Assembly (NCBI GenBank): GCA_016934735.1
Contig: JAFGSG010000071.1
Span: 27,369 to 91,368, forward strand
Reading direction: 5' to 3'
Length of the DNA stretch: 64,000 nucleotides
Origin: Spirochaetota bacterium
GTDB taxonomy: Bacteria > Spirochaetota > UBA4802 > JAFGDQ01
Shown in pieces: positions 1-15,904 of the stretch. A program made the position numbers and the translations under genes. Numbering within the stretch: position 1 is the first letter of the stretch; each line of letters starts with the position of its first letter. A model generated the notes under the pieces. It searched no databases. It had not been told where the DNA came from and saw nothing but the letters and a program-made list of their open reading frames with translations.

Positions 1-623
1 AGCTTCATAAAATTAAAACCATCTGCCCTGCATGTTGAGATATAAAGGATGCCGTCCTTTTTCAGATCTTTATAAGCTTTCTTTAAGATTAGGTCGGGCC
101 TGTGGAGATGTTCAATTGTAGACCATAGAGTGATTAGATCGAATTTTTTTGAAAAGTTAATTTTCATATAATCGCCCTGACGGACATTCAGTCCGAGCCT
201 GTTTGCAAAGTCCACGCAGTCTTTTGATATATCAATGCCGTATGAATGCCAGCCTTTTCCTTTTAAGAAATTTACAAAATAACCAGCTGCGCATCCGATA
301 TCAAGGCTACGGCGTTTTTCTTTTAACCGGTTTTCATATTTATAAAAACCAAGATCTGCAAGATTAAGCTTAAATACGCGCTCAATTTCATTTTTTGTGC
401 TACCGGAAAAATAATTGTCATAGCCCCGTTCTGTTCTTTTTGTAAAGTATGTTTTTTTATAATAGTATGATATTTCTCTTTCATCCGGAACCTGCGACAG
501 GAATTTAAGTCCGCAATTACTGCACTTAACAAGCGTGAACTCATCTCCCATCGCGGATGTTTTTTTAAATACTGTGTTGTTATCTTTTGATGCGCAGATT
601 ATACATGTATCTATTATTTTCAT
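1..623 (-). CDS. SAM-dependent methyltransferase with N-terminal zinc ribbon (3' end cut by window)
   Basis: The reverse strand is open from an ATG at 623 to the window edge, so about 207 residues are visible and the C-terminus is missing. The N-terminus has CIIC (residues 7-10) and CSNCG (about 34-38), a four-cysteine zinc ribbon as found ahead of many class I methyltransferases. The motif SLDIGCAAGYFV is the glycine-rich SAM-binding loop, followed by an acidic motif GIDIS and by TLWSTIEHLHRP, a motif typical of methyltransferase types 11/12. It lies 15 bp downstream of lpxB on the same strand, so it is probably co-transcribed and may modify a small molecule or cell-envelope sugar. The substrate cannot be read from sequence. 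Confidence 0.85.
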   Translation of the reverse strand, partial: MKIIDTCIICASKDNNTVFKKTSAMGDEFTLVKCSNCGLKFLSQVPDEREISYYYKKTYFTKRTERGYDNYFSGSTKNEIERVFKLNLADLGFYKYENRLKEKRRSLDIGCAAGYFVNFLKGKGWHSYGIDISKDCVDFANRLGLNVRQGDYMKINFSKKFDLITLWSTIEHLHRPDLILKKAYKDLKKDGILYISTCRADGFNFMK

Positions 624-638
624 TGTATCCCTTGAATA

Positions 639-1769
639 TTAATCGTTTATCAGCGATATCACTATTTTAGCAATTCTTTGAATAGCTCCAGATTTTCCAA
701 GTATATTTTTAACTTTGCGGATTCCGGCAATCATTTCTTTCAACGAGTTTTTATTGTCCAGATATTTTGAAACTTCGACGAATATTGTTTTACCTGTAAC
801 GTTTCTCTGCAGAAGCTCCGGGCAGATTTTTTTTCCTGCAACAATATTAACCAGCGCAATATTTTTTACTTTAAGAACTAGCTTTGCCAGCAGTTCAGAT
901 AAAATGTCAACTTTGTAAATTACGATCATTGGTTTGCCCAGTATTGCTGTTTCCAGGGTTGCAGTACCTGATGAGATTATAATAAAGTCGCACTTGTTTA
1001 TTGCTTTATAAGTATTGTTAAAAATCAGCTGTATTTTTAATGTCTTATATTGCGGTTTATCGAGTATTTCTTTAATATAGCTGCTCTCGTTTTTTTTTGC
1101 GACAGGAAGAAGAAATGCCGTATTATATTTTTCTTTTATCAGAATGGCAGCATCTAACATTGCAGGAAGATGAAGCTTAACTTCCGAAAGCCTTGAACCA
1201 GGGAGAAGGCCAATGTATATATTTGCGGGTTTGACTGCAATATCGCACGCATCAGCAGATTTTTCTTTGACAATATCTATAAGCGGATTGCCTGTAAAAA
1301 AAGCTCTTACGCCTTCTCTTCTGTATATCTCTTCTTCAAAAGGATAAAGCACAATCATTGCATCGATATATTTTTTTATCTTTTTTATTCTGGAGTAATG
1401 CCATGCCCATATTTGCGGCGATATATAATAGATTATTTTAATATTATTCTTTTTAAGCTTTTCTGCAAGCCGGAGATTGAATCCGGGAAAGTCGACTAAA
1501 ATAACAGAATTAATTTTTTTGGATAAAATAAACCCATAAATATTTTGAAGTGCATTTTTATAAAATCGCAGTTTAAGAAGAGGCTCAATGATTCCCATAC
1601 AGGCAAAATCTTTATAATTATACAGAAGCTTTACATTTTCTTTTTTAAGATTTTCTCCGCCGACGCCGTAAAAATCGATTTCATTGTTTAGATTTTTAAC
1701 AGCATTGACAAGCATGCCTGCATGCACATCTCCGCTTGTTTCCCCTGTCATTATGAATACTTTTTTCAT
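639..1769 (-). CDS. lpxB: Lipid-A-disaccharide synthase
   Basis: This 376-residue protein matches the GT19 family LpxB, which joins UDP-2,3-diacylglucosamine and 2,3-diacylglucosamine-1-phosphate (lipid X) to form the lipid A disaccharide at the inner membrane. It has the family N-terminus with GETSGDVHAGMLV (residues 9-21), then FYGVGG, the VDFPGFNLRLA block, and the C-terminal nucleotide-binding half with LLPGSRLSEV and SSGTATLE. The length is normal for the family. It is the clearest sign that the cell makes lipid A and has an outer membrane. No other lpx gene is near; the downstream neighbour is a methyltransferase in the same direction. Confidence 0.96.
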   Translation of the reverse strand: MKKVFIMTGETSGDVHAGMLVNAVKNLNNEIDFYGVGGENLKKENVKLLYNYKDFACMGIIEPLLKLRFYKNALQNIYGFILSKKINSVILVDFPGFNLRLAEKLKKNNIKIIYYISPQIWAWHYSRIKKIKKYIDAMIVLYPFEEEIYRREGVRAFFTGNPLIDIVKEKSADACDIAVKPANIYIGLLPGSRLSEVKLHLPAMLDAAILIKEKYNTAFLLPVAKKNESSYIKEILDKPQYKTLKIQLIFNNTYKAINKCDFIIISSGTATLETAILGKPMIVIYKVDILSELLAKLVLKVKNIALVNIVAGKKICPELLQRNVTGKTIFVEVSKYLDNKNSLKEMIAGIRKVKNILGKSGAIQRIAKIVISLIND

Positions 1770-2057
1770 TGAAAGCTGTATTATTAATTTTTTACTAATC
1801 TGCGATATTCAGGCTGTTAATGATAACAGTAGTTGTTATAATGATTAAATAATAATACTATAATTATAAAGAAACACAATAATCGGCAATAATAAATAAT
1901 TTTATTATTGATTTTATCTATAGTATAAAATATTATACAATCGATATGCTGAGAGAGTTCCTGTGAAATTTATAAAAGTCAATTAAGATTATATTTTATT
2001 AATTTTAATATTGAGAAATATTTTTTTTCTAAATAAATTACCATAGGAGAAATAATT

Positions 2058-2228
2058 ATGAAGCTATCTGCACCAAAATTCGTTCTTTGGCTAATAGCCC
2101 TGATAATAGGTGTTCTCGGTCTATTGGGATATCTTATCTCAATCCCGTTTATCACTGTCTATGCGTTTTGGCTGGTTTTCATTGGATTTGTCCTGTTGCT
2201 GATTGGAACTGCTTTTAAGGGAATCTAG
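2058..2228 (+). CDS. Small two-helix membrane protein (56 aa)
   Basis: This short ORF starts with ATG after a good ribosome binding site (AGGAGA, 2045-2050, 7 bp spacing) and ends with TAG. The 56-residue product starts MKLSAPK and then has two hydrophobic stretches, about residues 8-29 and 33-52, with a short polar turn (SIP) between them, so it should be a hairpin in the inner membrane. Small proteins with this MKLSAPK start and two helices occur in several anaerobic bacteria; no function is known to me. It stands alone between lpxB (divergent) and the ABC importer. Confidence 0.75.
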   Translation: MKLSAPKFVLWLIALIIGVLGLLGYLISIPFITVYAFWLVFIGFVLLLIGTAFKGI

Positions 2229-2614
2229 GTATAAGGTGAAACGATTGCATATATGCTATTGTCGTATTAACAGCGATTTATTTATGACTAAATGTATGCA
2301 AGGGTCGATCCGTATTTGTAAATAGTAAATAAGCCCAAGCTATGGCGGATATTTTCTTAAGGCAGATATCCGTCATGTGCTTCATGAATTTTCTTACCTG
2401 TAATTTTAAATATTTTATCGCCTTATTATCCTTTTACGGTAATGAAGATGCGGAAATTATGTCTGCAACAACAGCTTCCTGTCCATTAGAAAATGCGTAT
2501 GCAGGGAACAGGAAAATCCGAACTTTTATCTGGAAAAATATAGGATAAAATAATATTCAGCGAATATTTTAATATTCAGATCCATAATAAGCAGGATTAT
2601 AAATAATTCTGCGC
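2229..2614. other. Intergenic stretch without a supportable gene
   Basis: This stretch lies between the 3' ends of the small membrane protein and the ABC fusion gene. A 68-codon frame starting at 2342 has no ribosome binding site and no recognisable domain, and I do not call it. No strong hairpin followed by a T-run is visible. Confidence 0.5.
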
Positions 2615-4018
2615 CTATTTACTGCGAATTATATTCCCTTCCTTCATCTCATACAAAGTTATATTTCTGTTTGTAAGTTCTTCAGGATAATGCGTAATTA
2701 TTATAGAAGGGATTTTTCGTTTTACAAAGAGGTCAAAATACATATCCCATAGTTTTATTCTGGCTTCTTTATGCAGATTGTTAAAGGGTTCATCCAAAAT
2801 CATAAAATCGGGATTAAGCATTAATGCCCGGGCAAAAGACAGAAGTTTTTTCATTCCTCCGCTTAATTCATCAGGGTAGAGATTTATATTCTCTGTCAGT
2901 TCGCAGAGTTCAAGAAAATATAGGGTTATACTTTCATAACCTTGTATCCTTTTCCAGCGCGCAGGCAGGGAAGCATTGCCAAAACAGTCAAGATGGTTTA
3001 ATAACACGTCTTCCTGAAAAATCATTCCTGGATTGCATGGGAGAGAAACGCTGCCTGAATGTGGTTTAAGTATACCGCAAATTATTTTCGCAAGGGTTGT
3101 TTTACCGCATCCTGAATTGCCCGTAAGCACAGCGGTTTCTCCGGACGATATGTGAAAATGTTCCAGAGAAATTATATTTTTTTTGCTGTAAGAGAATATT
3201 ACATTTTTTAAATCCAGGCTTGTGAAGGCCGGATTAAAATAATTATTTGGAATGAATTTATTTTTTTCAGCAGTCATGCTTTTTCTTCTATTCGGGAAAA
3301 AATAATTCCCTACCCAACGGCTAAAAAAAGCCAGTATGCCAACTATTATTAAAAATAAAAGAGCGGTTGCATAAAAGGAAGTCATATCGAACGTATAAAA
3401 ATATTCATTTACAATCCTTCCAATCCCGTTCTTTGCTCCAAACCATTCACCGATAATTGAACTTTTTAAAGCAAGTATTACACCGAGAATTAATATGGTT
3501 TTTAAGTATGGAGCAAGTGAGGGAATAATCAATTCAGTAAGTTTCATTTTTTTTGAATCGGCGTATATCCTGAACATATCCCGCATTAAAGGGCTAATTG
3601 TCTTTCTGCCTTCCTGGATGTTTATTATAACGAGCGGCAATGTAATAAAAAATACAACTACAACAGGGGCTGCCCCCTCTGTTCCGACTATCAGCATCAG
3701 AGGAATTATCCATAGTATTGGCGGCGCTCCCTGTAGTATTATTACGGGGAAAAAGAAAATCCTTTCTATGGCAAGTATGCTTCCTGTTGCTATGCCTATT
3801 CCAGTACCAATAACAAATGCAAGAGCGAATCCGGATAATGTTCTTATAATAGTAATTGCGAGATTAATATAGGTCGAGGGCAGCATAAGTATTTGACACA
3901 GCTTAAGCAATACTTTATGCGGGTAGGGGATTATGCTTTCGGTGAAGACTTCAGACATGATTATCCAGACAGTGGCTATTAAGATAATCCCGGATGTATA
4001 ATAAGCAATCTTTTTCAT
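2615..4018 (-). CDS. ABC transporter permease-ATPase fusion (nitrate/sulfonate/taurine type)
   Basis: One 467-residue chain carries both the membrane and ATP-hydrolysing parts of an importer. Residues 1-250 have about six hydrophobic helices and the cytoplasmic EAA-type loop typical of SsuC/TauC-like permeases. A linker follows, then an ATPase from about residue 265: Walker A GNSGCGKTT (near 303), signature LSGGMKKL, Walker B FMILDEP and the H-loop ITHYPEE. In this family the two parts are normally separate genes. The binding-protein gene lies 36 bp upstream in the same direction, so the pair forms a complete uptake system. The substrate may be an aliphatic sulfonate, a thiamine precursor or another small organic compound; it cannot be decided from sequence. 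Confidence 0.88.
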   Translation of the reverse strand: MKKIAYYTSGIILIATVWIIMSEVFTESIIPYPHKVLLKLCQILMLPSTYINLAITIIRTLSGFALAFVIGTGIGIATGSILAIERIFFFPVIILQGAPPILWIIPLMLIVGTEGAAPVVVVFFITLPLVIINIQEGRKTISPLMRDMFRIYADSKKMKLTELIIPSLAPYLKTILILGVILALKSSIIGEWFGAKNGIGRIVNEYFYTFDMTSFYATALLFLIIVGILAFFSRWVGNYFFPNRRKSMTAEKNKFIPNNYFNPAFTSLDLKNVIFSYSKKNIISLEHFHISSGETAVLTGNSGCGKTTLAKIICGILKPHSGSVSLPCNPGMIFQEDVLLNHLDCFGNASLPARWKRIQGYESITLYFLELCELTENINLYPDELSGGMKKLLSFARALMLNPDFMILDEPFNNLHKEARIKLWDMYFDLFVKRKIPSIIITHYPEELTNRNITLYEMKEGNIIRSK

Positions 4019-5435: not shown

Positions 5436-8400
5436 ATGGTCAATGTTACAATTAACGGAAAAGAGTATTCAGTAAAAGAGGATTCGACAATTATTGATGC
5501 AGCGCGGGCAAACGGTATAGATATTCCAGCCCTCGGATACGATCCGCGCGTAAGCCCGCCGAGCAATGTGGAAGCAGCATTTGTTGAAGTCACACTGGGA
5601 GATAAGACAAGATTTATATCCGCAACATCTTCACTTGTTGAAATCGGCATGTCTATCCGGACTGAATCCGATGCCTTAAAAAATTACAGACAGATATATC
5701 TGCAGGCCCTGTTGCGTCATCATTACGGGGACTGTGCCGCTCCATGCGTTCAGCACTGTCCAGCAAATATTGATATTCAGAAATATATTTATCATGTCAG
5801 CTGCGGTAATTTTTTGGAGGCTCTTGCGGTCATTAAAGATAGCAATCCGCTGCCCTCTGTGTGCGGGCGCGTTTGTCCGCATCCGTGCGAAACAGACTGC
5901 AGGCGAAATGCATTGGACGGCGCGGTCAATATAAACGGTATAAAACGATTTGTTGCGGACTGGAATGTATCGCAGCCTAGTCAGTACAAACCCGAGTGCA
6001 GTCCGGATACTGGATATAGGATTGCAGTAGTAGGCGCTGGCCCTGCAGGTCTTACTGCCGCCTGGTTTTTAAGACGGGCTGGTCATCAGGTTACAATATT
6101 TGAAATGCAGGAAGCAGCCGGCGGCATGCTGCGCTGGGGTATACCGTATTACCGGCTTCCGGAAAGAGATTTGGATATAGAAATTAAAGCAATAATTGAT
6201 CTGGGTGTTGATATTAAATATAATAAAGCATTAGGCCGTGATTTTACTCTTGAATCACTTATAAGGGACGGATTTAATGCTGTGTTTACCGCGTTGGGGG
6301 CTCAAAAGGCAACCTCAATGGGTGTCAAAGGCGAAGATCTCGACGGCGTTATGTCCGGTCTGGATTTTCTGGCTAGGCTTGGGCGCAACGGGAAACCGTC
6401 ACTCGGAGAAAGAGTCATAGTATTAGGGGGCGGAAATACTGCTATGGATGCTGCGCGCAGCGCCGTGCGTCTGGGCGTAAAGGATGTTACCATTGTGTAT
6501 CGCAGGAGCAGACAGGAAATGCCTGCTCAAAAGATTGAAGTAGATGAAGCTATAGAAGAAGGGGTCAACTTCCAGTTTTTATCTACGCCCGTGTCGATAC
6601 AAAAGAGCGGGAATATGCTGCAGGTCAACTGTATGAGGATGGTGCTTGGTGAGCCGGATAAAAGCGGCAGGCGCCGCCCGGTCCCGCAGGAAGGTTCTGA
6701 ATTTACCCTTACCGCTTCCACTGTAATTTCCGCAATAGGCCAGTCTGTTGACGGGCAGTGCATCGGCGATACAAGGCTGCTTGATAAATGGGGCAATATC
6801 CTGGTTGATTCAAAATCGATGCAGACTTCCATTCCATGGGTTTTTTCCGGAGGAGACTGTGTCACAGGGCCCGATATAGCCGTAACGGCAATTGGCGCAG
6901 GCAAAAGAGCTGCGCAGTCGATTGATCAGTATGTCAGAACCGGTAAAGTTATTTTACCCGAAGAACCGTATACATGTACAAAAGGAGAATGGAGCAGCCT
7001 TCCGGCTGAAACTTTTAAAGGAGTTAAATACGATAACCGCAGGGAAGTGCCTTCACTGCCTCCAAATACGCGGAAGAATAATTTTGATGAATCATCAATT
7101 ACGTGGGATGCTGAAACAGCAATGGCTGAAGCTTCCCGCTGCCTGGCCTGCGGCTGCACCGAACGATATGATTGCTCACTCCGCACTTATGCGAGCCGGT
7201 ATGGTGTTCAGCACGATACCTCACAGCCTGCCAAACCTTTACCTGTTGACGATAATCATCCTATTATTACAAGGGATACAGGCAAATGTATTTTATGCGG
7301 ACTTTGCCTCAAGGTCTGCCGCGAAATGGAAGGCGTTTCGGCTTTGAGTTTTTATGAAACAAACAACATCCTGACTATCGGCCCGAACGATCACAAACCT
7401 CTTGATATGACCACGTGTGTTTCATGCGGCCATTGTGCAACCGTTTGCCCGACCGGAGCTCTAACTCTTAAGCCAACTCTGCCGGATGTCTACCGCGCGC
7501 TGAAAAATGAGGAACTTACTGTCATTGCCCAGATAGCACCTGCCGTACGCGCTTCATTCGGAGACTATTATGGCATTGACGCAGCACAGGTTATGCCTGT
7601 TTTAAGCTCTTCCCTGAAAAAACTCGGATTCGACTTTGTATTCGATACATGCTGGGCGGCAGATTTAACTATTATGGAAGAAGGAACCGAATTTCTTTCG
7701 CGTCTTGCCAATGGAGGGGTGCTGCCGCAGATGACTTCATGCTGTCCTGCATGGGTCAATTATTGCGAAAAAATGGCTCCTGATATTTTACCGCATCTTT
7801 CTTCGTGTAAATCTCCGCAGCAGATGTTCGGAGCGGTTATGAAGCAGTACTTCACCAAACAGCTTAATGTACGTCCGGAAGCATTATACTTTGTTTCAAT
7901 AATGCCGTGCAACGCCAAAAAATACGAGTCCATGAGACCGGAATTCAGTACGGGTGACACACCGGATGTAGATAAAGTAATGACCACCACGGATATTATC
8001 GATATGTTAAAAGAGAGAAATATTGATCCATGCTGCATTGAACCGGGTCAGGTTGACGCTTTCTTCGGAAAAGTTAGCGGAGCAGGGATTATCTTCGGCG
8101 CAAGCGGAGGTGTAGCCGAAGCTGCCCTGCGTCTTGCTGCAGAGCGTGTAACCGGCAAACAGATGGAAAGTTTTGAATATGAAGGAGTAAGGGGGCTTCA
8201 GGGTGTAAAGGAAAGCGTTGTTACACTGGGAGACTCTAAAGTCCGTCTTGCGGTTGTAAGCGGTCTCCAGAATGCCCAGAAGCTGATTGACCGCATCAGA
8301 GCCGGAGACGCTCCTTATGACCTGATCGAAGTCATGGCATGCCCCGGCGGATGCATTAACGGGTCGGGCAATCCGGCTCCCATGCTGCATGCGGATACGG

Positions 8401-8858
8401 AACAGCGGCTGGAAGTATTATACAGGCTGGATCAGGAAGCTCCGATACGGAAAAGCCAGGACAATCCTGCGGTTCAGGCGATCTACAACAACTGGCTCGG
8501 CGAGCCGTTCTCCAGGATGTCGCATCATTCACTGCATACAACATATCGCAGGCGATCGATGCGTACCCATGATGCACCTTTGGAACCGCTGAAGATAGAA
8601 TCGCATACAATCGGCGTATGCATAGGCACCAACTGCTATGTCAAGGGTTCATGGAAGCTTCTGGAGGGGCTTTCCATTGAATTGAAGCAGCGCGGGTTGT
8701 CCGATCAGTTTCGCGTACAGGCCAGATTCTGTACCGGTGAATGTGAAGCAGGCCCGAATATTGTGATAGGCGGCAGAGTTATACCCATTCAGGACATGAA
8801 TGATTCCGCATCTATTGTAGATGAGCACTTGCTGCCGTTAATTAATAAAAAAAGATAA
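5436..8858 (+). CDS. Multidomain NAD(P)H-linked [FeFe]-hydrogenase with GltD/NfnB-type module
   Basis: This 1140-residue enzyme should couple H2 formation or uptake to NAD(P)H and ferredoxin in the cytoplasm. Domains in order: a [2Fe-2S]-ferredoxin-like fold (1-80) whose cysteine ligands are all replaced; a GltD-type double [4Fe-4S] segment (98-170); FAD site GAGPAG (200-205); NAD(P) site GGGNTAMDAA (331-340) followed by YRRSRQ, the NADPH-type arginine pair; two [4Fe-4S] motifs (about 618-675); the H-cluster domain with TSCCPAW (767-773), MPCNAKKYE (823-831) and MACPGGC (967-973); and a C-terminal NuoE-like domain with Cys 1062, 1067, 1099 and 1103. I choose the ATG at 5436; a TTG at 5406 would only add ten unconserved residues. 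It heads the operon with the small ferredoxin and sensory hydrogenase. The maturases HydEFG are not in the window. Confidence 0.93.
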   Translation: MVNVTINGKEYSVKEDSTIIDAARANGIDIPALGYDPRVSPPSNVEAAFVEVTLGDKTRFISATSSLVEIGMSIRTESDALKNYRQIYLQALLRHHYGDCAAPCVQHCPANIDIQKYIYHVSCGNFLEALAVIKDSNPLPSVCGRVCPHPCETDCRRNALDGAVNINGIKRFVADWNVSQPSQYKPECSPDTGYRIAVVGAGPAGLTAAWFLRRAGHQVTIFEMQEAAGGMLRWGIPYYRLPERDLDIEIKAIIDLGVDIKYNKALGRDFTLESLIRDGFNAVFTALGAQKATSMGVKGEDLDGVMSGLDFLARLGRNGKPSLGERVIVLGGGNTAMDAARSAVRLGVKDVTIVYRRSRQEMPAQKIEVDEAIEEGVNFQFLSTPVSIQKSGNMLQVNCMRMVLGEPDKSGRRRPVPQEGSEFTLTASTVISAIGQSVDGQCIGDTRLLDKWGNILVDSKSMQTSIPWVFSGGDCVTGPDIAVTAIGAGKRAAQSIDQYVRTGKVILPEEPYTCTKGEWSSLPAETFKGVKYDNRREVPSLPPNTRKNNFDESSITWDAETAMAEASRCLACGCTERYDCSLRTYASRYGVQHDTSQPAKPLPVDDNHPIITRDTGKCILCGLCLKVCREMEGVSALSFYETNNILTIGPNDHKPLDMTTCVSCGHCATVCPTGALTLKPTLPDVYRALKNEELTVIAQIAPAVRASFGDYYGIDAAQVMPVLSSSLKKLGFDFVFDTCWAADLTIMEEGTEFLSRLANGGVLPQMTSCCPAWVNYCEKMAPDILPHLSSCKSPQQMFGAVMKQYFTKQLNVRPEALYFVSIMPCNAKKYESMRPEFSTGDTPDVDKVMTTTDIIDMLKERNIDPCCIEPGQVDAFFGKVSGAGIIFGASGGVAEAALRLAAERVTGKQMESFEYEGVRGLQGVKESVVTLGDSKVRLAVVSGLQNAQKLIDRIRAGDAPYDLIEVMACPGGCINGSGNPAPMLHADTEQRLEVLYRLDQEAPIRKSQDNPAVQAIYNNWLGEPFSRMSHHSLHTTYRRRSMRTHDAPLEPLKIESHTIGVCIGTNCYVKGSWKLLEGLSIELKQRGLSDQFRVQARFCTGECEAGPNIVIGGRVIPIQDMNDSASIVDEHLLPLINKKR

Positions 8859-8873
8859 AAGGTAAAACATTTT

Positions 8874-9149
8874 ATGCTGCTTATAACTATCTGCGTGGGC
8901 AGTTCCTGCAGTTTGAGAGGTTCGGACGAACTGGCTATGGAATTACAGAAGCTAATTAAAAAGGAACAGCTTGAAGGGCTGGTAGATATTGTAGGGGCAT
9001 TCTGCATGGATTTGTGTTCAAAGGGCGTTTCAGTACGCGTAGGGGATGCTCAATTCAGCGGAATTAAACCGGAGCAGGCGGAAGAATTCTTTTATAAGGA
9101 AATCATAAGCCGGGCGGATAGAAAACTCCTGAGCAGAAATCCGGATTGA
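8874..9149 (+). CDS. Small thioredoxin-like [2Fe-2S] ferredoxin (NuoE C-terminal type)
   Basis: The 91-residue product has Cys7, Cys12, Cys44 and Cys48, spaced as in the [2Fe-2S] cluster of thioredoxin-like ferredoxins and the C-terminal half of NuoE/HndA. It resembles the last domain of the hydrogenase encoded 15 bp upstream, and sits in the same operon. It probably passes electrons to or from the hydrogenase or to the downstream sensory protein. The N-terminal helical domain of full NuoE is absent. Confidence 0.85.
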   Translation: MLLITICVGSSCSLRGSDELAMELQKLIKKEQLEGLVDIVGAFCMDLCSKGVSVRVGDAQFSGIKPEQAEEFFYKEIISRADRKLLSRNPD

Positions 9150-9186
9150 ACCGGAGTTATGCTATACTGCCGGGAAAAGAGGGAAT

Positions 9187-10902
9187 ATGAGTGAACCGCT
9201 TATCATTACAAATTCGGCGCGCTGCCGCGACTGCTATCGTTGTGTCCGCAATTGCGACGTAAAAGCTATCAGAGTAAAAAACGGCCAGGCCCAGGTTGTA
9301 CCTGAGTTGTGCATTCTCTGCGGTACCTGCGTCAGGATATGTCCGCAGAAGGCAAAAGGAGTTCGCAGCTCAACCCCGGATGTTAAGGAAGCGCTGAACG
9401 GCGGCAGGAAGCTGATTGCTTCAGTGGCGCCTTCAACTCCGGCCTATTTTACCATGAACTCTTTTGCAGACATGGAGAATGCGCTACTCGCACTGGGCTT
9501 TACTGCAGTTGAAGAAACGGCAGTAGGCGCAGAAGTCGTAAGCGCAGCTCATCGGGAATATGTTGAAAAAAATCCGGATAGAAAACCGGTCATTACGTCT
9601 TCATGTCCTGTTATCGTCAATCTTATCCAGCAGTATTACCCTGACCTTATCCCTCATCTTGCTCCAATTGTTTCTCCCATGATTGCCCATGGGCGCATGC
9701 TGAAGAATAAATACGGTGCTGATGCCTATATTGTTTTCATTGGTCCGTGCATCGCAAAAAAAATGGAAATACTGGATGAACCGGTAGCCGGTGTAATAAA
9801 CGCGGTTATAACTTTTCGAGGTCTTCAGGAATGGTTGATTGAAAAAGAAGTTATAATTAATAAATCTACTGATATTTGCGCTACTACGCATGAAATGAAA
9901 GCAAGACTTTTTCCTGTAGAAGGAGGACTGATCGGCGCAGCCCGTCTTAATACTGATATGCTTAGTGCGCAGATGATAGTCACCAGCGGGCTTGCTGCCT
10001 GCCGGGATGTTTTACGCGATATTGCAGCTGGCCAGCTTAATGCTGATATGGTAGAGCTTATGGCCTGCAGCGGAGGGTGTATTAATGGGCCTGTCATGGC
10101 CGATCTTCCGGGCGGTATCTACCGGTCTCGCCAGAAGATCATAGAATACTTTAAAAATAATCCTTATCATCCTCAGATATCGAAAGATGACTGGCCTCCT
10201 CTTTCACGTACATACCGGAACAGGGAGCAGCCTATACCAGAGTTTACAGAGGAGCAGATTCAGGACATACTGCATCGTGTGAATAAGTATACTCCTGAAG
10301 ATGAGCTGAACTGTCAGGCATGCGGTTATGAAAGCTGTCGTGAGAAAGCAATAGCTACTCTTCGCGGAATGGCGGAATTAACAATGTGTATTCCATATAT
10401 GCGAAGCCGCTCTGAATCACTCAGGCAGGTGGTTATGGATGTTTCTCTTAATCCCGTTATAATTGTTGACTATAACCTGCAGGTCCAGGACATGTCCCCG
10501 TCTGCTGAAGCGCTTTTTAAAGTATCACTTGCAGGGGTGAAAGGAAAATTTCTCTCCGTTCTTATACCTATCATTGACGATTATCTTTCGGTACGTGACA
10601 CAGGCATGCCGGTAATTTCCAAAGTTAATCGTTTCAGCAGCGGCATAGTTGTTGAACAAACCATTGTCCGGGTAGAAGGCCAGGCTCTTCTGGTTGCAAT
10701 AATGCGGGATATTACGGAGGAGGAAAAGGAAAGACAAAAATTTGTAGGATTAAGATCTGAAATGCTTGAGAAAACCAGAGAAGTTGTACAGAAGCAAATG
10801 CGGGTTGCCCATGAGATTGCACACCTTCTTGGGGAGACAACCGCTGAAAGCAAGATGATCGTTTTAAATCTCGCAAGGCTGCTGGAAGAGGAAGAGCAGT
10901 AA
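9187..10902 (+). CDS. hydS: Sensory [FeFe]-hydrogenase with PAS domain
   Basis: This 571-residue protein matches the putative H2-sensing group C hydrogenases. Residues 10-60 hold two [4Fe-4S] motifs (CRDCYRCVRNC and CILCGTCVRIC). The H-cluster domain follows with TSSCPVIV (137-144), IGPCIAKK (185-192) and MACSGGC (292-298). In catalytic enzymes the first motif is TSCCP; here the first cysteine, used for proton transfer, is serine, which fits a sensor rather than a fast catalyst. An extra iron-sulfur motif CQACGYESC lies at 376-384, then a PAS domain (about 410-510) and a C-terminal coiled coil. Its stop overlaps the start of the SpoIIE-type phosphatase by one base, so the two are translationally coupled and probably act in one signalling route. 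Confidence 0.92.
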   Translation: MSEPLIITNSARCRDCYRCVRNCDVKAIRVKNGQAQVVPELCILCGTCVRICPQKAKGVRSSTPDVKEALNGGRKLIASVAPSTPAYFTMNSFADMENALLALGFTAVEETAVGAEVVSAAHREYVEKNPDRKPVITSSCPVIVNLIQQYYPDLIPHLAPIVSPMIAHGRMLKNKYGADAYIVFIGPCIAKKMEILDEPVAGVINAVITFRGLQEWLIEKEVIINKSTDICATTHEMKARLFPVEGGLIGAARLNTDMLSAQMIVTSGLAACRDVLRDIAAGQLNADMVELMACSGGCINGPVMADLPGGIYRSRQKIIEYFKNNPYHPQISKDDWPPLSRTYRNREQPIPEFTEEQIQDILHRVNKYTPEDELNCQACGYESCREKAIATLRGMAELTMCIPYMRSRSESLRQVVMDVSLNPVIIVDYNLQVQDMSPSAEALFKVSLAGVKGKFLSVLIPIIDDYLSVRDTGMPVISKVNRFSSGIVVEQTIVRVEGQALLVAIMRDITEEEKERQKFVGLRSEMLEKTREVVQKQMRVAHEIAHLLGETTAESKMIVLNLARLLEEEEQ

Positions 10903-12077
10903 TGAGGCAGTTTGTCGAATTCTCGTGGATAAGTCTGAACAAGGACGGAGAGGAATTATGCGGGGATTCGGTAATCATCCAGTCCTCCCGCGATTCATTT
11001 GTGGCAGTATTGTCGGACGGGCTCGGAAGCGGCGTAAAGGCAAGCATATTATCAACCCTGACAGCGGAAATCGCAGCCCGGATGTTCGATTCCGGTGGAA
11101 CCGTTGAGGAAGTGATGCAGACTCTCGTAGAAACGCTTCCGGAATGCTCCGTTCGGAAGCTAGCCTATGCTACCTTTGCGGTTTTAACCGTTGATCATGG
11201 CACGGAAGCACATCTGGTAGAGTTTGACAGTCCTTCACTCATCCTGGTGCGCAACGGAAAATTAGCTGAATTATCATTTGAAGAGCATCAGATTAAAGGC
11301 CGCGTCATCCGCGAGGCGCGTTTTGCATTGCAGGACAATGACTATATGGTACTCATAAGTGATGGTTATGAACATGCGGGACTGGGAGGAATATACCGTC
11401 TCGGATGGGGATGGAAGAATGTAGCCACATCAGTCCAGCGTTTTGTACAGACCGGCATGGATACAGACAGGCTTTCTGATGCACTTTCGCGTACCTGCAT
11501 GAAATTATACAGCGGAAAGCCGGGAGATGATTCCACAGTTATCTGCATGAAAGTGCGGCCGGCGGTATCTGTGTGCATCCTGACAGGCCCTCCAGGCAAC
11601 AGAGAACTGGACAGCTTTGCGGTTAACAGGCTAATGTCTGCAGAGGGAGATAAAATAATTTGCGGGGGCAGCACAGCACAAATGGTCGCCCGGGAACTTA
11701 AGCTGAAGCTTGAGGTCGAATGGGTGCCGCCATGGAAAGTGAGCGGGGAAAAGCCCAGAAAAAAAGGTTCCCCGCCGACAGCAAAATTAGAGGGTATAAA
11801 TTTTGTTACTGAAGGCATTCTGACTATCGGCCAGGCTGTAGAACTGCTGGAGAAATGTAAAACAATATATGAACTTCCCGGCGATAACGATGCCGCAACC
11901 AGATTAGCGCGTTATTTGCTTGCTGCAGACGATATTTATCTAATCGTGGGTACTGCTATAAATCCTAACCAGGTTGCAGACCTTATACGCGGCGAGCCGA
12001 TGAGGATGGTATATATACGTGAACTCGTTCAAAATCTGACAAAGAGAAATAAACAGGTTACAGTGGAAAGGATTTAG
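10902..12077 (+). CDS. SpoIIE-type PP2C serine phosphatase coupled to the hydrogenase sensor
   Basis: Residues 1-225 of this 391-residue protein form a PP2C/SpoIIE phosphatase: SDGLGSG is the first metal-binding motif, followed by ISDGYE and by GDDSTVI near 215. The remaining 165 residues are a separate domain that I do not recognise, with GPPGNRELD at its start and GDNDAATRLA near the end. It begins on the last base of the sensory hydrogenase stop codon. SpoIIE-type phosphatases next to PAS-containing [FeFe]-hydrogenases are a recurring arrangement in anaerobes. The likely role is to change a phosphoprotein in response to H2 or redox state; the target is unknown and no anti-sigma partner is visible here. 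Confidence 0.87.
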   Translation: MRQFVEFSWISLNKDGEELCGDSVIIQSSRDSFVAVLSDGLGSGVKASILSTLTAEIAARMFDSGGTVEEVMQTLVETLPECSVRKLAYATFAVLTVDHGTEAHLVEFDSPSLILVRNGKLAELSFEEHQIKGRVIREARFALQDNDYMVLISDGYEHAGLGGIYRLGWGWKNVATSVQRFVQTGMDTDRLSDALSRTCMKLYSGKPGDDSTVICMKVRPAVSVCILTGPPGNRELDSFAVNRLMSAEGDKIICGGSTAQMVARELKLKLEVEWVPPWKVSGEKPRKKGSPPTAKLEGINFVTEGILTIGQAVELLEKCKTIYELPGDNDAATRLARYLLAADDIYLIVGTAINPNQVADLIRGEPMRMVYIRELVQNLTKRNKQVTVERI

Positions 12078-12088
12078 TATGTAAGATC

Positions 12089-12104
12089 CAGGGTTTAAAC
12101 CCTG
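12089..12104. repeat. 16-bp perfect palindrome between convergent genes
   Basis: CAGGGTTTAAACCCTG is a perfect palindrome between the stop of the phosphatase gene and the stop of the convergent kinase remnant. No T-run follows, so it is at most a weak terminator; it may be a dispersed intergenic repeat. Confidence 0.6.
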
Positions 12105-12106
12105 TC

Positions 12107-12622
12107 CTATTCATCATCATGAATAATTACTTTTGAAGGATCATCAGTTCGTATTAATCTGCGAGGAATCCGGATAACTGCCTTTGTACCTGGTGCGCCT
12201 TTTAACGGATCGCTGTTTGTTTCTATAGAAATGCTGCCGGAATGGGCTTTTATAATGCCATAAGTTTCAGCAAGTCCGAGGCCGGTTCCTTCTCCCGGTG
12301 ATTTTGTTGTGAAGAATGGCGTAAAAAGCTGTTCCATGTTGTCATCACTAATGCCTGTTCCGGTATCATGAATTGTTATAAATATAGTATCTATATTGTC
12401 ATCAATCGTTATTGTCAGGCAGCCTCCGTCCGGCATAGCTTCCAGTGCATTTTTTTCCAGATTTATTAAGGCATTAACAATTTTGTTATGGTCAATCCAG
12501 AGGTGTTCATCATTAATGTTCGATAAAATCGATATTTCAACATTATCAGGTTTAATAATACCTGCAAGACTGTCACCTATTATGCGAGATATACTTGTTT
12601 CTTTTAATTTAAGCCCCAGCAA
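12107..12622 (-). CDS. Histidine-kinase ATPase domain, N-terminally truncated (possible remnant)
   Basis: This 171-residue frame is a complete HATPase_c domain: N box around NALINLEKNALEA, G1 box DTGTGIS, F box FTPFF and G2 box GTGLGLAE. The dimerisation/phosphoacceptor helix domain (H box) and any sensor are missing. The only start is a TTG two codons after an in-frame TAA, with a poor ribosome binding site, and the 200 bp upstream carry no recognisable kinase sequence. It therefore looks like the 3' remnant of a kinase gene, though a stand-alone ATPase cannot be excluded. It converges on the hydrogenase operon and could once have been its regulator. Confidence 0.65.
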   Translation of the reverse strand: MLGLKLKETSISRIIGDSLAGIIKPDNVEISILSNINDEHLWIDHNKIVNALINLEKNALEAMPDGGCLTITIDDNIDTIFITIHDTGTGISDDNMEQLFTPFFTTKSPGEGTGLGLAETYGIIKAHSGSISIETNSDPLKGAPGTKAVIRIPRRLIRTDDPSKVIIHDDE

Positions 12623-12840
12623 GGATTACCTATAATTGTTTATCTTGGATTTGATTTAGAGCAAATATTATAATGTTTAAAAGCTATTGGCCAACCAGAT
12701 ATATAAAATATTGTAAATGTCAGTATGCATGATCAGTTTTTACGAAACGTATAGATCTTATAGATGCTGATTGAACATACAAGGTCTGAAATGTTTTTAA
12801 AAGTCAATATCATTTTACTTGAATTTGGACAACGTTAGAA

Positions 12841-12975
12841 TCAATTTACCCAACCTGAAATAAATGCAGAATAAATCAGAGTACAAAAGACTACAATAAT
12901 GAACGAGAAATATGCCAGCGATACCCCTGCCATATGAATTGGCTTCGTAAGAAAACCGATGGTGCTTATAAGCAT
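12841..12975 (-). CDS. Possible small hydrophobic ORF downstream of the tRNA pair (44 aa)
   Basis: A 44-codon frame from ATG 12975 encodes two hydrophobic segments and ends in IYSAFISGWVN. The composition looks like a membrane protein, but there is no ribosome binding site, and longer versions of the frame run through the tRNA terminator and the tRNA-Glu gene, so they cannot be real. It could be the tail of a decayed gene. Confidence 0.2.
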   Translation of the reverse strand: MLISTIGFLTKPIHMAGVSLAYFSFIIVVFCTLIYSAFISGWVN

Positions 12976-13000
12976 TGCAGAAAAAGCGAGTATATTTGGA

Positions 13001-13034
13001 AATAAAAAACTCAACCTTATGGTTGAGTTTTTAG
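13001..13034 (-). terminator. Rho-independent terminator of the tRNA operon
   Basis: An 11-bp perfect stem (13006-13016 with 13021-13031) with an ATAA loop lies 13 bp past the 3' end of tRNA-Glu. On the minus strand the stem runs into TTTTTTATTT. The position and the T-run make this a strong terminator for the tRNA-Lys/tRNA-Glu transcript. Confidence 0.88.
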
Positions 13035-13044
13035 ATGCATTACG

Positions 13045-13117
13045 CATCCCCGAGGGGATTTGAACCCCTGTTGCAGGGATGAAAACCCTGTGTCCTAGAC
13101 CCCTAGACGACGGGGAC
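13045..13117 (-). tRNA. tRNA-Glu (anticodon TTC)
   Basis: The 73-nt sequence folds as a tRNA: acceptor strand GTCCCCG pairs with CGGGGAT (one G-T pair), the anticodon stem CAGGG/CCCTG encloses TT-TTC-AT, and the T arm has GGGGTTCAAATCCCC. The 3' CCA is not encoded. It is the second gene of a tRNA pair and is followed by a terminator. Confidence 0.95.
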
Positions 13118-13151
13118 AAATATAAAAGCGCAAATAAAATAATATGCACTT

Positions 13152-13224
13152 TGAGTCGCGGGAGAATTGAACTCCCGACCCACTGCTTAAAAGGCAGTTG
13201 CTCTACCGACTGAGCTAGCGACTC
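13152..13224 (-). tRNA. tRNA-Lys (anticodon TTT)
   Basis: The 73-nt sequence has acceptor GAGTCGC/GCGACTC with A as discriminator base, a D arm containing AGCTCAGTCGGTAGAGC, anticodon stem ACTGC/GCAGT around CT-TTT-AA, and a T arm with CGGGAGTTCAATTCTCCCG. CCA is not encoded. It lies 34 bp upstream of tRNA-Glu and is probably co-transcribed with it. Confidence 0.96.
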
Positions 13225-13424
13225 GGGTGATTTATTATACAGGACGCTAAAGTATTAAATACACCTTATCTGTCAAACAAAAAAACAAAAAATATGCCGG
13301 TATTTTAAATTTTAACAAAAAATTTTATAAAATCAAATTAATAAATATAGCTTTTCATTTGATTTTAAAAGATATACTTGGCGCCGGAGTCGGTTGCTCT
13401 AAAATTAAAGTAGAGAAATAATAA

Positions 13425-13497
13425 CTGTCATTTGATGAATGTCGCAATATTATACATAAATTTATATTTATGTATAATTGGCATCTGTCAGTTGATA
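13425..13497. repeat. Hairpin flanked by short direct repeats
   Basis: A perfect 12-bp inverted repeat (13450-13461 with 13466-13477, loop TTAT) is flanked by near-identical direct repeats, CTGTCATTTGATG at 13425 and CTGTCAGTTGATA at 13485. It lies just past the 3' end of the acetyltransferase gene and could act as its terminator, or be a scar of a small insertion. Confidence 0.5.
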
Positions 13498-13520
13498 GTT
13501 AAAAATTTACTGTAAAAAAG

Positions 13521-13997
13521 TCAATCTAAATTATAATAAAAAATCTTAATAATATTTTTATCGTTACCCTTTTCTTTTTCAAGAAATGACCAGCCTGATT
13601 TTATGTAATAATTTTCAAGATTGTATTTATCGGACTCAGTAAAGAGATGGAGCCGGTTATATTTAAGTGATTTAGCCTTTTCTATCACCTGCCTGATTAG
13701 TAAATAGCCTAATCCGCGGTTTCTGTATTCCGGCAGAACAAAAAGCGATGCGAGCCATGGGTTCAGGTCTTTTCTTGACCAGAGATCGTTCTCCTTTAAC
13801 GATACCATACCGACAGGAATTTCATCTTCAATCACAATCCATGTTACAGGTATTTTGGCGTTCTTTGTTCTTTCTTCGTACGCTTTTATGACCAGATCAA
13901 AAGTAATTGACCTGGTTTGGTACCATTCCTTATATGCCCAGAAAGCAAGGATGGGTGCGTATTCCGGATGTTTTGTTAAAATTGTAATATATGCCAT
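13521..13997 (-). CDS. GNAT family N-acetyltransferase
   Basis: The 158-residue protein has the GNAT fold signature: beta strand and loop LASLFVLPEYRNRGLGYLLI, where RNRGLG is the acetyl-CoA pyrophosphate-binding motif A, followed by AKSLKYNRLHLFTE and the C-terminal YYIKSGWSF block. It should transfer an acetyl group from acetyl-CoA to an amine; the substrate is not predictable. It stands alone between the tRNAs and the divergent hdr operon. Confidence 0.9.
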   Translation of the reverse strand: MAYITILTKHPEYAPILAFWAYKEWYQTRSITFDLVIKAYEERTKNAKIPVTWIVIEDEIPVGMVSLKENDLWSRKDLNPWLASLFVLPEYRNRGLGYLLIRQVIEKAKSLKYNRLHLFTESDKYNLENYYIKSGWSFLEKEKGNDKNIIKIFYYNLD

Positions 13998-14281
13998 ATA
14001 AAGTATTTTTCACAATATTTTTTAAAAAATAATTTTTGATAGTAAATATCAACAAATTTTATTGATTTAAAAATAAAAAAGTTATATATTTAATATGTTA
14101 TATAGACCAATATTTATTGACAGAATTATTAATTTTTTTAAAACTGCCATTGGACAATATTATATAATGTTTTCCGGGTTTAAATATAATTCAGATGTTG
14201 ACAAATTTTTAGTTATCTAATAAAATAAATATTTTTTAATATATCTTTACAGTACGCATCATTGTTAAGGATAAAGAAAAC

Positions 14282-14878
14282 ATGAAAGCGGATACATATA
14301 AATTAAAAGACTTTTCGTCTTTTACAAAAGACATTATAAACGTAAGCGGAGAAAAGATTAACAATTGCTATCAGTGTAGAAAATGCACTGCCGGCTGTCC
14401 AATAACGTTCGCTATGGATATTCTGCCTCATCAGATCATCAAATATATTCAGCTTGGATTTGAGGAGAAAGTTTTAACCTCAAAGACGATATGGCTGTGC
14501 GCAGCATGCGAGACATGCGGGACAAGGTGCCCTAATGAAATTGACCTTGCGGCAATGATGGATGCGTTGAGGCAAAGAGCTCTGGCAACACAATACAGGA
14601 ACCGGATTGGAGAAAAGGGAACATCGGTCTTTCATCAAGAGTTTTTGTCTTCAGTAAAGTCAAACGGCCGGGTATATGAAGCAATGATGATGGCTAAATC
14701 GAGAATGAGGTCTGGACACTTTTTGACTTATCTCCTGAGAGGCGACTGGATAGCTGATATTAAGCTTTTTATTCCTATGCTTTTAAAAGGAAAGATGGGC
14801 ATGTTGCCGCACAGGATCAGGAATAGAAAAGAAATAAAGAAATTATTTAAAAAATTTGCAATAGGACGGAAGGTTTGA
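14282..14878 (+). CDS. hdrC: Heterodisulfide reductase subunit C homologue
   Basis: This 198-residue protein has two complete [4Fe-4S] motifs, CYQCRKCTAGCP (about residues 30-41) and CAACETCGTRCP (about 75-86), in the spacing of HdrC. The C-terminal half is basic and helical. HdrC passes electrons between HdrA and HdrB. It is the first gene of hdrC-hdrB-hdrA-mvhD-metV-metF, has an AAGGA ribosome binding site, and ends 3 bp before hdrB. In this context the complex most likely feeds a methylene-tetrahydrofolate reductase, not a CoM-S-S-CoB reductase. Confidence 0.93.
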   Translation: MKADTYKLKDFSSFTKDIINVSGEKINNCYQCRKCTAGCPITFAMDILPHQIIKYIQLGFEEKVLTSKTIWLCAACETCGTRCPNEIDLAAMMDALRQRALATQYRNRIGEKGTSVFHQEFLSSVKSNGRVYEAMMMAKSRMRSGHFLTYLLRGDWIADIKLFIPMLLKGKMGMLPHRIRNRKEIKKLFKKFAIGRKV

Positions 14879-14881
14879 TCT

Positions 14882-15742
14882 GTGAACACGAAAGTATCAT
14901 ATTATCCAGGTTGTTCCCTGCGCGGTACAGGGAGGGAATACGGAGAGTCAGCCGAGGCGGTGTTTAAATCGTTAGGCACGGAACTTGTTGAGCTTCCGGA
15001 CTGGAGCTGCTGCGGTGCTTCATCTGCTCACAGTGAAAACAAGGGCCTTGCGGTGGAGATAGCTGCGCGGAATCTGATTCTGGCAAAAGAGAGCGGTCTA
15101 AAGGATATGGTCATTCCATGCTCAGCCTGCTTCCAGAGGACTAAAGTTGCCGAGTATGAATTAAAGGAAAATCCGCAGGCATATCCGGATATCAGTTATA
15201 ACAGTGAAGTCAATATTCCGGATATTGTGAGTTTCGTACATAATAAAATCGGTATTGAAGCGATAAAAAAAAATGTTATTAAAAAGCTTACTGGCTTAAA
15301 AGTCGTAAGCTATTACGGTTGCCTTATTTCACGCCATCCGAAAATAACAGGAGCCGGAAATTTTGAAAATCCGACTGAGATGGATACAATTCTTGAAGCT
15401 CTGGGAACTGAAGTGATAGACTGGGGATATAAGACAGACTGTTGCGGCGGAAGCCTTGCCATCTCGCAAGCTGAAATTATGCAGAAGCTTGTAGGCAATC
15501 TTTACGACAAAGCGCTCGAAGCAGGTGCTGAGTGCATTGCTGTCTGCTGTCCGCTGTGCCATGCAAATCTCGATATGTATCAGAAGGAAATATCAAAAAG
15601 ATTTAAAAAAAATTATAATACTCCCATTTTTTATTTTACTGAACTCATAGGCCTTGCGATAGGGGAAAAAGATATTATAAAATGGCTAAAAAGACATCTT
15701 ACTGATCCGATTAAATTGCTTAAAGAGAAGAATTTATTATAA
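14882..15742 (+). CDS. hdrB: Heterodisulfide reductase subunit B homologue
   Basis: The 286-residue protein carries both cysteine-rich CCG domains that in HdrB hold the paired non-cubane iron-sulfur clusters. The first has PGCSLRG, SCCGASS and PCSACF; the second has YYGCLIS, TDCCGGS and CCPLCH. All cysteines of both motifs are present. It starts with GTG 3 bp after hdrC. In methanogens this subunit reduces the heterodisulfide; in the acetogen-type MetVF complex its partner is unsettled, and it may simply relay electrons. Confidence 0.93.
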   Translation: MNTKVSYYPGCSLRGTGREYGESAEAVFKSLGTELVELPDWSCCGASSAHSENKGLAVEIAARNLILAKESGLKDMVIPCSACFQRTKVAEYELKENPQAYPDISYNSEVNIPDIVSFVHNKIGIEAIKKNVIKKLTGLKVVSYYGCLISRHPKITGAGNFENPTEMDTILEALGTEVIDWGYKTDCCGGSLAISQAEIMQKLVGNLYDKALEAGAECIAVCCPLCHANLDMYQKEISKRFKKNYNTPIFYFTELIGLAIGEKDIIKWLKRHLTDPIKLLKEKNLL

Positions 15743-15756
15743 AAGGAAATTTTAAA

Positions 15757-15867
15757 CTCACCTCCTAATCCCCGGAGGGGGCCAACGGTTGTGAAGATTT
15801 GAAGGCGGTTGCTGGGATTTATTCCAAGATGGTGCCCCCTTTAGGGGTATAGGGGGCCGAGAGCGGA
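15757..15867. repeat. Palindromic intergenic element inside the hdr-met operon
   Basis: The two ends of this about 110-bp GC-rich stretch are imperfect inverted copies: the left arm (about 15761-15782) and the reverse complement of the right arm (15833-15856) share the pattern CC.CCTA..CCCC...GGGGGC. It fills the gap between hdrB and hdrA in otherwise AT-rich spacer DNA. It looks like a small non-autonomous palindromic element and could form RNA structure in the operon transcript. Confidence 0.6.
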
Positions 15868-15904
15868 AAAGCTAATTTAATTTTTTACAAATGAGATATT
15901 GATT

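Follow-up and report, generated by a model that had tools for sequence, protein, structure and literature searches.

A GltD-fused [FeFe] hydrogenase and its gene neighborhood

The window, by which we mean the whole stretch of 64,000 nucleotides analyzed here, carries one intact open frame at positions 5436 to 8858 that encodes a fused hydrogenase of 1140 amino acids. The Pfam matches give the domain order as Fer2_4 (residues 1 to 78), Fer4_20, a GltD-like FAD/NAD(P) reductase, a cysteine group at residues 569 to 580, two [4Fe-4S] sites, the H-cluster domain, a small-subunit domain, and a C-terminal thioredoxin-like [2Fe-2S] domain. The features of the hydrogenase and the three genes that follow it lie on the + strand.

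The Fer2_4 domain is of the NuoG/HydA [2Fe-2S] type and is devoid of cysteines. It was identified by Pfam, a profile search, and hhalign and covers residues 1 to 95 (5436..5720). The adjoining Fer4_20 region (5721..5990), which is predicted by Pfam to hold [4Fe-4S] clusters beside the FAD, contains Cys100, 104, 108, 143, 147, 151, and 155, all of them invariant. It opens with His96 (5721..5723), a candidate His ligand of a NuoG-N5-like [4Fe-4S] cluster, which is invariant in 76 of 76 sequences of the mixed alignment and whose role we infer from the HxxxC motif of NuoG and HydA. The GltD/NfnB-like FAD and NAD(P)H module follows at 5991..6935 (Pfam Pyr_redox_2, with PRK12771 above cutoff), and then the invariant Cys569, 572, 574, and 580 (7140..7175), which we assign to the [4Fe-4S] cluster of the Y-junction, on its GltD side. 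Two ferredoxin-type [4Fe-4S] clusters (Cys618-628 and Cys661-671, 7284..7466; Pfam Fer4_7/Fer4_21) are likewise formed by invariant residues. The H-cluster domain (Pfam Fe_hyd_lg_C, 294.7 bits) and the small-subunit domain (Fe_hyd_SSU) together occupy 7518..8555, and the C-terminal thioredoxin-like domain with its four cysteines (1062, 1067, 1099, and 1103) lies at 8604..8825 (Pfam 2Fe-2S_thioredx).

The TIGR02512 score of 461.3 bits, against a cutoff of 405.95, and the motifs TSCCPAW, PCNAKK, and MACPGGC place the protein among the group A [FeFe] hydrogenases. Apart from the N-terminal domain, the Fe-S ligands and H-cluster motifs are all present and invariant. Judging from its sequence, the protein most likely acts as a self-contained NAD(P)H:H2 oxidoreductase, in which a group A [FeFe] hydrogenase has received a GltD/NfnB module after its N-terminal [2Fe-2S] domain and before the [4Fe-4S] site that follows.

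Three genes follow the hydrogenase. The first encodes a separate 91-residue thioredoxin-like ferredoxin with four cysteines (8874..9149; a weak Pfam match), which is conserved beside the hydrogenase in Syntrophaceae-type loci, the second a PAS-bearing, HydS-like sensory-type [FeFe] hydrogenase (9187..10902), and the third a SpoIIE-type phosphatase (10902..12077). The four genes of this cassette are 64 to 84% identical, gene by gene, to Syntrophaceae-type loci, and in the trees the hydrogenase of the window is nested in a set otherwise from Syntrophaceae/Smithellaceae-like bacteria. The G+C content is 0.48 at positions 8001 to 12000, compared with 0.34 at 1 to 4000 and 0.37 at 12001 to 16000, with other blocks of the window reaching up to 0.46. 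The foreign tree position, the identity of the cassette, and the G+C content therefore make it likely that the cassette (5436 to 12077) was acquired horizontally from Syntrophaceae-type bacteria.

A full-length match was found in only two of 392 genomes of the phylum, namely, the window genome and the same-family genome G002, whose hydrogenase (L096) is a fused type that has the N-terminal cysteines. HydE and HydF are encoded near it. The plasmid collection yielded no close fused homologue. Mis-binning of the contig was ruled out, because LpxB on the same contig matches the same-family genomes G002 (60%) and G001 (53%), marking the contig as native. Searched with PF02906, the whole assembly shows two [FeFe] hydrogenase domains and no more, each of them in the cassette. 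Although the assembly is 91% complete, neither HydF nor HydG scored above its curated cutoff, which leaves H2 activity in this organism a prediction. Homologues of HydS and SpoIIE, at about 33% identity, likewise come after a cysteine-bearing fused hydrogenase in a Fibrobacteres MAG (L092, 5026-7711).

An N-terminal domain without its cluster ligands

The Fer2_4 match to residues 1 to 78 scores 45.1 bits (cutoff, 22.8), and a PDB sequence search aligns residues 2 to 93 with the [2Fe-2S] domains of 9bov_A, CpI, StnC (8oh5_C), and NuoG. A profile built from 22 cysteine-less sequences matches the 9bov_A, StnC-like, HydA, and NuoG chains over nearly the full length of the profile (best E value, 8.5e-17), and hhalign relates the cysteine-less to the cysteine-bearing domains at 99.8%. 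The NuoG/HydA-type fold of residues 1 to 95 is very probably retained. The initial annotation had described a ferredoxin-type domain without cysteine ligands at 5436 to 5700, and both its nature and its location are borne out, with the domain extending to about 5720. There are no cysteines in residues 1 to 99, the first one of the hydrogenase being at residue 100, and the four-cysteine pattern (C-x10/11-C-x2-C ... C) is absent.

Pairwise and multiple alignments to cysteine-bearing relatives place the former ligand positions at Gly34 (GGA, 5535..5537), Val45 (GTG, 5568..5570), Ala48 (GCA, 5577..5579), and Thr64 (ACA, 5625..5627), where the x10 and x2 spacing of the first three is the same as in StnC-type proteins. 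Within the clade, Gly34 is found in 22 of 22 aligned members and Thr64 in 20 of 22, while the second position is taken by Val, Phe, Ile, Leu, or Ala and the third by Ala or Ser. The ligand blocks first proposed were correct for the first three positions; Ala63, named as the fourth, is the neighbor of the true position. The alignments support the prediction that the N-terminal domain cannot bind a [2Fe-2S] cluster.

A sequencing or assembly error or a frameshift can be dismissed as an explanation for the missing cysteines, with a probability that we regard as negligible: each ligand codon is two to three substitutions away from a Cys codon, the gene is one open frame, and the loss recurs in homologues from independent assemblies.

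Distribution of the loss and selection on the domain

A contig scan for fused loci found 80, of which 21 are 63 to 77% identical to the window protein and 58 are readable relatives at 41 to 48% identity. All 21 of the former lack the four N-terminal cysteines, and all 58 of the latter have them (the CCCC pattern). Whole-genome searches covered the class of a Syntrophaceae genome, with a match in 18 of 155 genomes, and the class of an Anaerolineae genome, with a match in 2 of 298; the extra members from both searches are all cysteine-less. By our count, the clade comprises 28 distinct sequences, including that of the window, and the four cysteines are absent from all 28, which settles for the whole clade the question, raised with the initial annotation, of whether close homologues lack them too. 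The members come from Syntrophaceae, Smithella, Syntrophorhabdus, and Anaerolineae, mostly syntrophic bacteria, and have the replacement loop LGYDPRVSPP..E in common.

The CCCC pattern is also complete in the sampled StnC-like proteins (12/12) and unfused HydA proteins (14/14). A stand-alone ancestor that had already lost its cysteines was rejected for the nearest one examined, a relative from an Anaerolineae genome (L158), which has CCCC. In trees of residues 105 to 685 and 575 to 1038, each of four groups (cysteine-less, cysteine-bearing fused, StnC-like, and HydA) is set apart by a branch with a support of 99 to 100, and a mixture-model tree of 28 rows for residues 105 to 685 agrees. Because the StnC-like and HydA groups carry the cysteines and the cysteine-less group is one side of a branch, the sequences imply a single loss of the four cysteines in this sample.

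The N-terminal domain remains under purifying selection. Its dN/dS (Nei-Gojobori), computed for seven pairs of closely related clade members, is 0.08 to 0.30, usually somewhat above that of the catalytic domains and far below 1. Of 25 core positions that are hydrophobic in the cysteine-bearing set, 24 stay hydrophobic, compared with none of the four ligands being kept, and the mean pairwise identity of the domain is 0.67 in the cysteine-less clade versus 0.66 in the cysteine-bearing clade. Several positions, including G34, P37, P42, E46, S62, and Q90, do not vary within the clade and mostly carry other residues in the cysteine-bearing set. The clade-wide loss and the dN/dS values rule out a private pseudogenization. 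Neutral decay, in which the cluster was no longer needed and its domain is gradually disappearing, would agree with the somewhat variable ligand positions 2 and 4, but the dN/dS well under 1, the invariant Gly34 and Glu46, the preserved core, and a clade in which no truncated members were seen make it highly improbable.

Proposed electron wiring and relation to known systems

The GltD module is present alike in the cysteine-less clade, the CCCC sister clade, and the StnC-like proteins. Its presence in the latter two groups indicates that it predates the loss and therefore does not replace the cluster. The proposal that GltD had become the new electron entry is thus not supported, whereas the other parts of that early reading, namely, a fold family that is kept, a cluster that is missing, and a domain that is under selection, as would fit a structural or docking role, remain in place.

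Nor did the checked neighbors in the clade (including L065, L069, L107, and L071) include a NuoF/HydB gene directly beside the hydrogenase, and the HydB and HydC genes that accompany HydA in HydABC/Bfu-type systems are not found there; a NuoF gene occurs about 3 to 7 kb from the hydrogenase on three contigs of the clade. The loss of a HydBC partner is unsupported as the cause, since the cysteine-bearing sister clade is equally without NuoF directly beside the gene. Elsewhere in the window genome, a NuoF-GltD fusion of 1018 residues is encoded together with NuoE-like and thioredoxin-like ferredoxin genes, with no HydA beside them (L159, 1778-4834). The window itself also encodes a 1491-residue protein in which a GltD-type module and additional Fe-S motifs are joined to HdrA-like parts (15899-20374).

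In the Y of NiFe-HydABCSL, cluster A2 links A1 ([2Fe-2S]), A3, and A4, of which A1 lies toward the FMN (HydB); the H-cluster of the monomeric [FeFe] hydrogenase is on the A4/A5 arm (PMC8880783). A role of A1 as a ferredoxin port was proposed for one HydA (discussed in PMC9499530). In StnC, the electron path leads from FAD over the GltD clusters to the NuoG-like part, which contains the [2Fe-2S] cluster, and on to StnB; the StnC N-terminal domain shares in tetramer contacts (PMC10482914).

We favor, with moderate confidence, a reading in which arm A1 of the Y-junction was amputated and its domain retained as a scaffold, leaving a linear NAD(P)H-FAD-[4Fe-4S]n-H-cluster wire. As the sequences show for this sample, the ancestor of the clade lost the N-terminal cluster (arm A1, the counterpart of N1b in complex I) with every one of its four ligands, and the fold stayed under selection. 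From the sequence order and the invariant residues, the GltD module, inserted between His96 and Cys569-580, would sit on the His-ligated arm, so that FAD and the H-cluster would each have an arm of their own, leaving the third to A1. By analogy with homologous structures, the three-armed junction would become a linear wire running from FAD through the GltD [4Fe-4S] clusters and the junction [4Fe-4S] clusters to the H-cluster. The loss of A1 need not break the transfer from FAD to H2, and the exit to a HydB-type flavoprotein or a ferredoxin would be gone. The cluster-less domain may have been kept as a packing or subunit-interface scaffold, and the tetramer contacts of the StnC N-terminal domain give a reason to keep such a fold.

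The non-conducting domain might instead serve as a docking platform that recruits a specific partner, such as a ferredoxin, the 91-residue thioredoxin-like ferredoxin, or the sensory hydrogenase, while the electrons take another path. The clade-specific invariant positions in and around the loop suggest a new constrained surface, and the partner genes at 8874 to 12077 are conserved in Syntrophaceae-type loci. However, the deeper branches (L065-L067, L069, L071, and L107) have the same loop without those genes adjoining, and we consider docking unlikely. The same deeper members led us to reject coevolution with the ferredoxin, HydS, and SpoIIE genes as the cause of the loss.

The C-terminal domain shows a striking reciprocal pattern. 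Its four cysteines are complete in every cysteine-less member with a readable C-terminus, whereas in the cysteine-bearing fused members (58/58) the domain is absent or keeps at most its first cysteine pair, a contrast that is a single one between two clades. The identity of the thioredoxin-like domain is 0.68 in the cysteine-less clade compared with 0.44 in the sister clade, and the two cysteine sets, N-terminal and C-terminal, occur together in an unfused outgroup protein (L014). The C-terminal domain, as the only predicted [2Fe-2S] site left, may be the remaining partner port. These observations could be taken to mean that it now faces the partner in place of the lost N-terminal cluster, while the sister clade kept the N-terminal site and let the C-terminal one decay. 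Such a switch seems rather doubtful to us, given that it relies on one phylogenetic contrast and that in Thermotoga maritima HydABC the equivalent cluster, A5, is >30 A from any other cluster (PMC9499530). A slightly less doubtful, still speculative, extension is that the ancestor had two [2Fe-2S] ports, of which the two sister clades dropped opposite ones, which would make the cysteine-less clade a natural two-terminal Y-junction, strictly NAD(P)H linked and with a relocated partner port.

Complex I, formate dehydrogenases, and hydrogenases all contain the Y-junction, which evolution is described as having preserved throughout (PMC8880783), and its significance has been called unknown (PMC9499530). 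In the open-licence literature searched, we found no title or abstract describing such a loss in an [FeFe] hydrogenase. A natural clade with one arm gone and the rest kept offers a ready-made test of the role of that arm, and of whether the arm determines if H2 metabolism is ferredoxin linked, bifurcating, or plainly NAD(P)H linked, which bears on H2 transfer in syntrophic bacteria.

The closest known architectures are the following. StnC of the Stn transhydrogenase from Sporomusa ovata (8oh5_C) and 9bov_A have a like order of Fer2, Fer4_20/GltD, cysteine cluster, and two [4Fe-4S] sites over residues 2 to 679; StnC, however, keeps its [2Fe-2S] ligands, works with the partners StnAB, and ends in an inactive FdhF domain, in whose place the window protein has the H-cluster domain. 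The [FeFe] hydrogenases with a fused GltD from Clostridia, Actinobacteria, Verrucomicrobia, and others (for example, L096, L082 of Ruminiclostridium sufflavum, and L104) are alike in full architecture at 41 to 48% identity, but they keep the four N-terminal cysteines, and their C-terminal domain is half-degraded or absent. The HydDB group A2, the glutamate synthase-linked hydrogenases with a proposed H2/NAD coupling, resembles the window protein in its group A membership and GltD link (PMC5037454). The rule for placing a hydrogenase in that group calls for a GltD-type protein encoded separately and immediately downstream, and for no NuoF (PMC5037454). Here GltD is fused inside a single polypeptide that has lost its N-terminal cluster, and no NuoF gene lies directly beside it. 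Finally, the HydA of HydABC, or "M3c" HydA, with its clusters A1 to A5 (T. maritima; PMC9499530, PMC11406978) shares the N-terminal, ferredoxin-like, H-cluster, and C-terminal [2Fe-2S] domains, but it has A1, no GltD insertion, and the partners HydBC.
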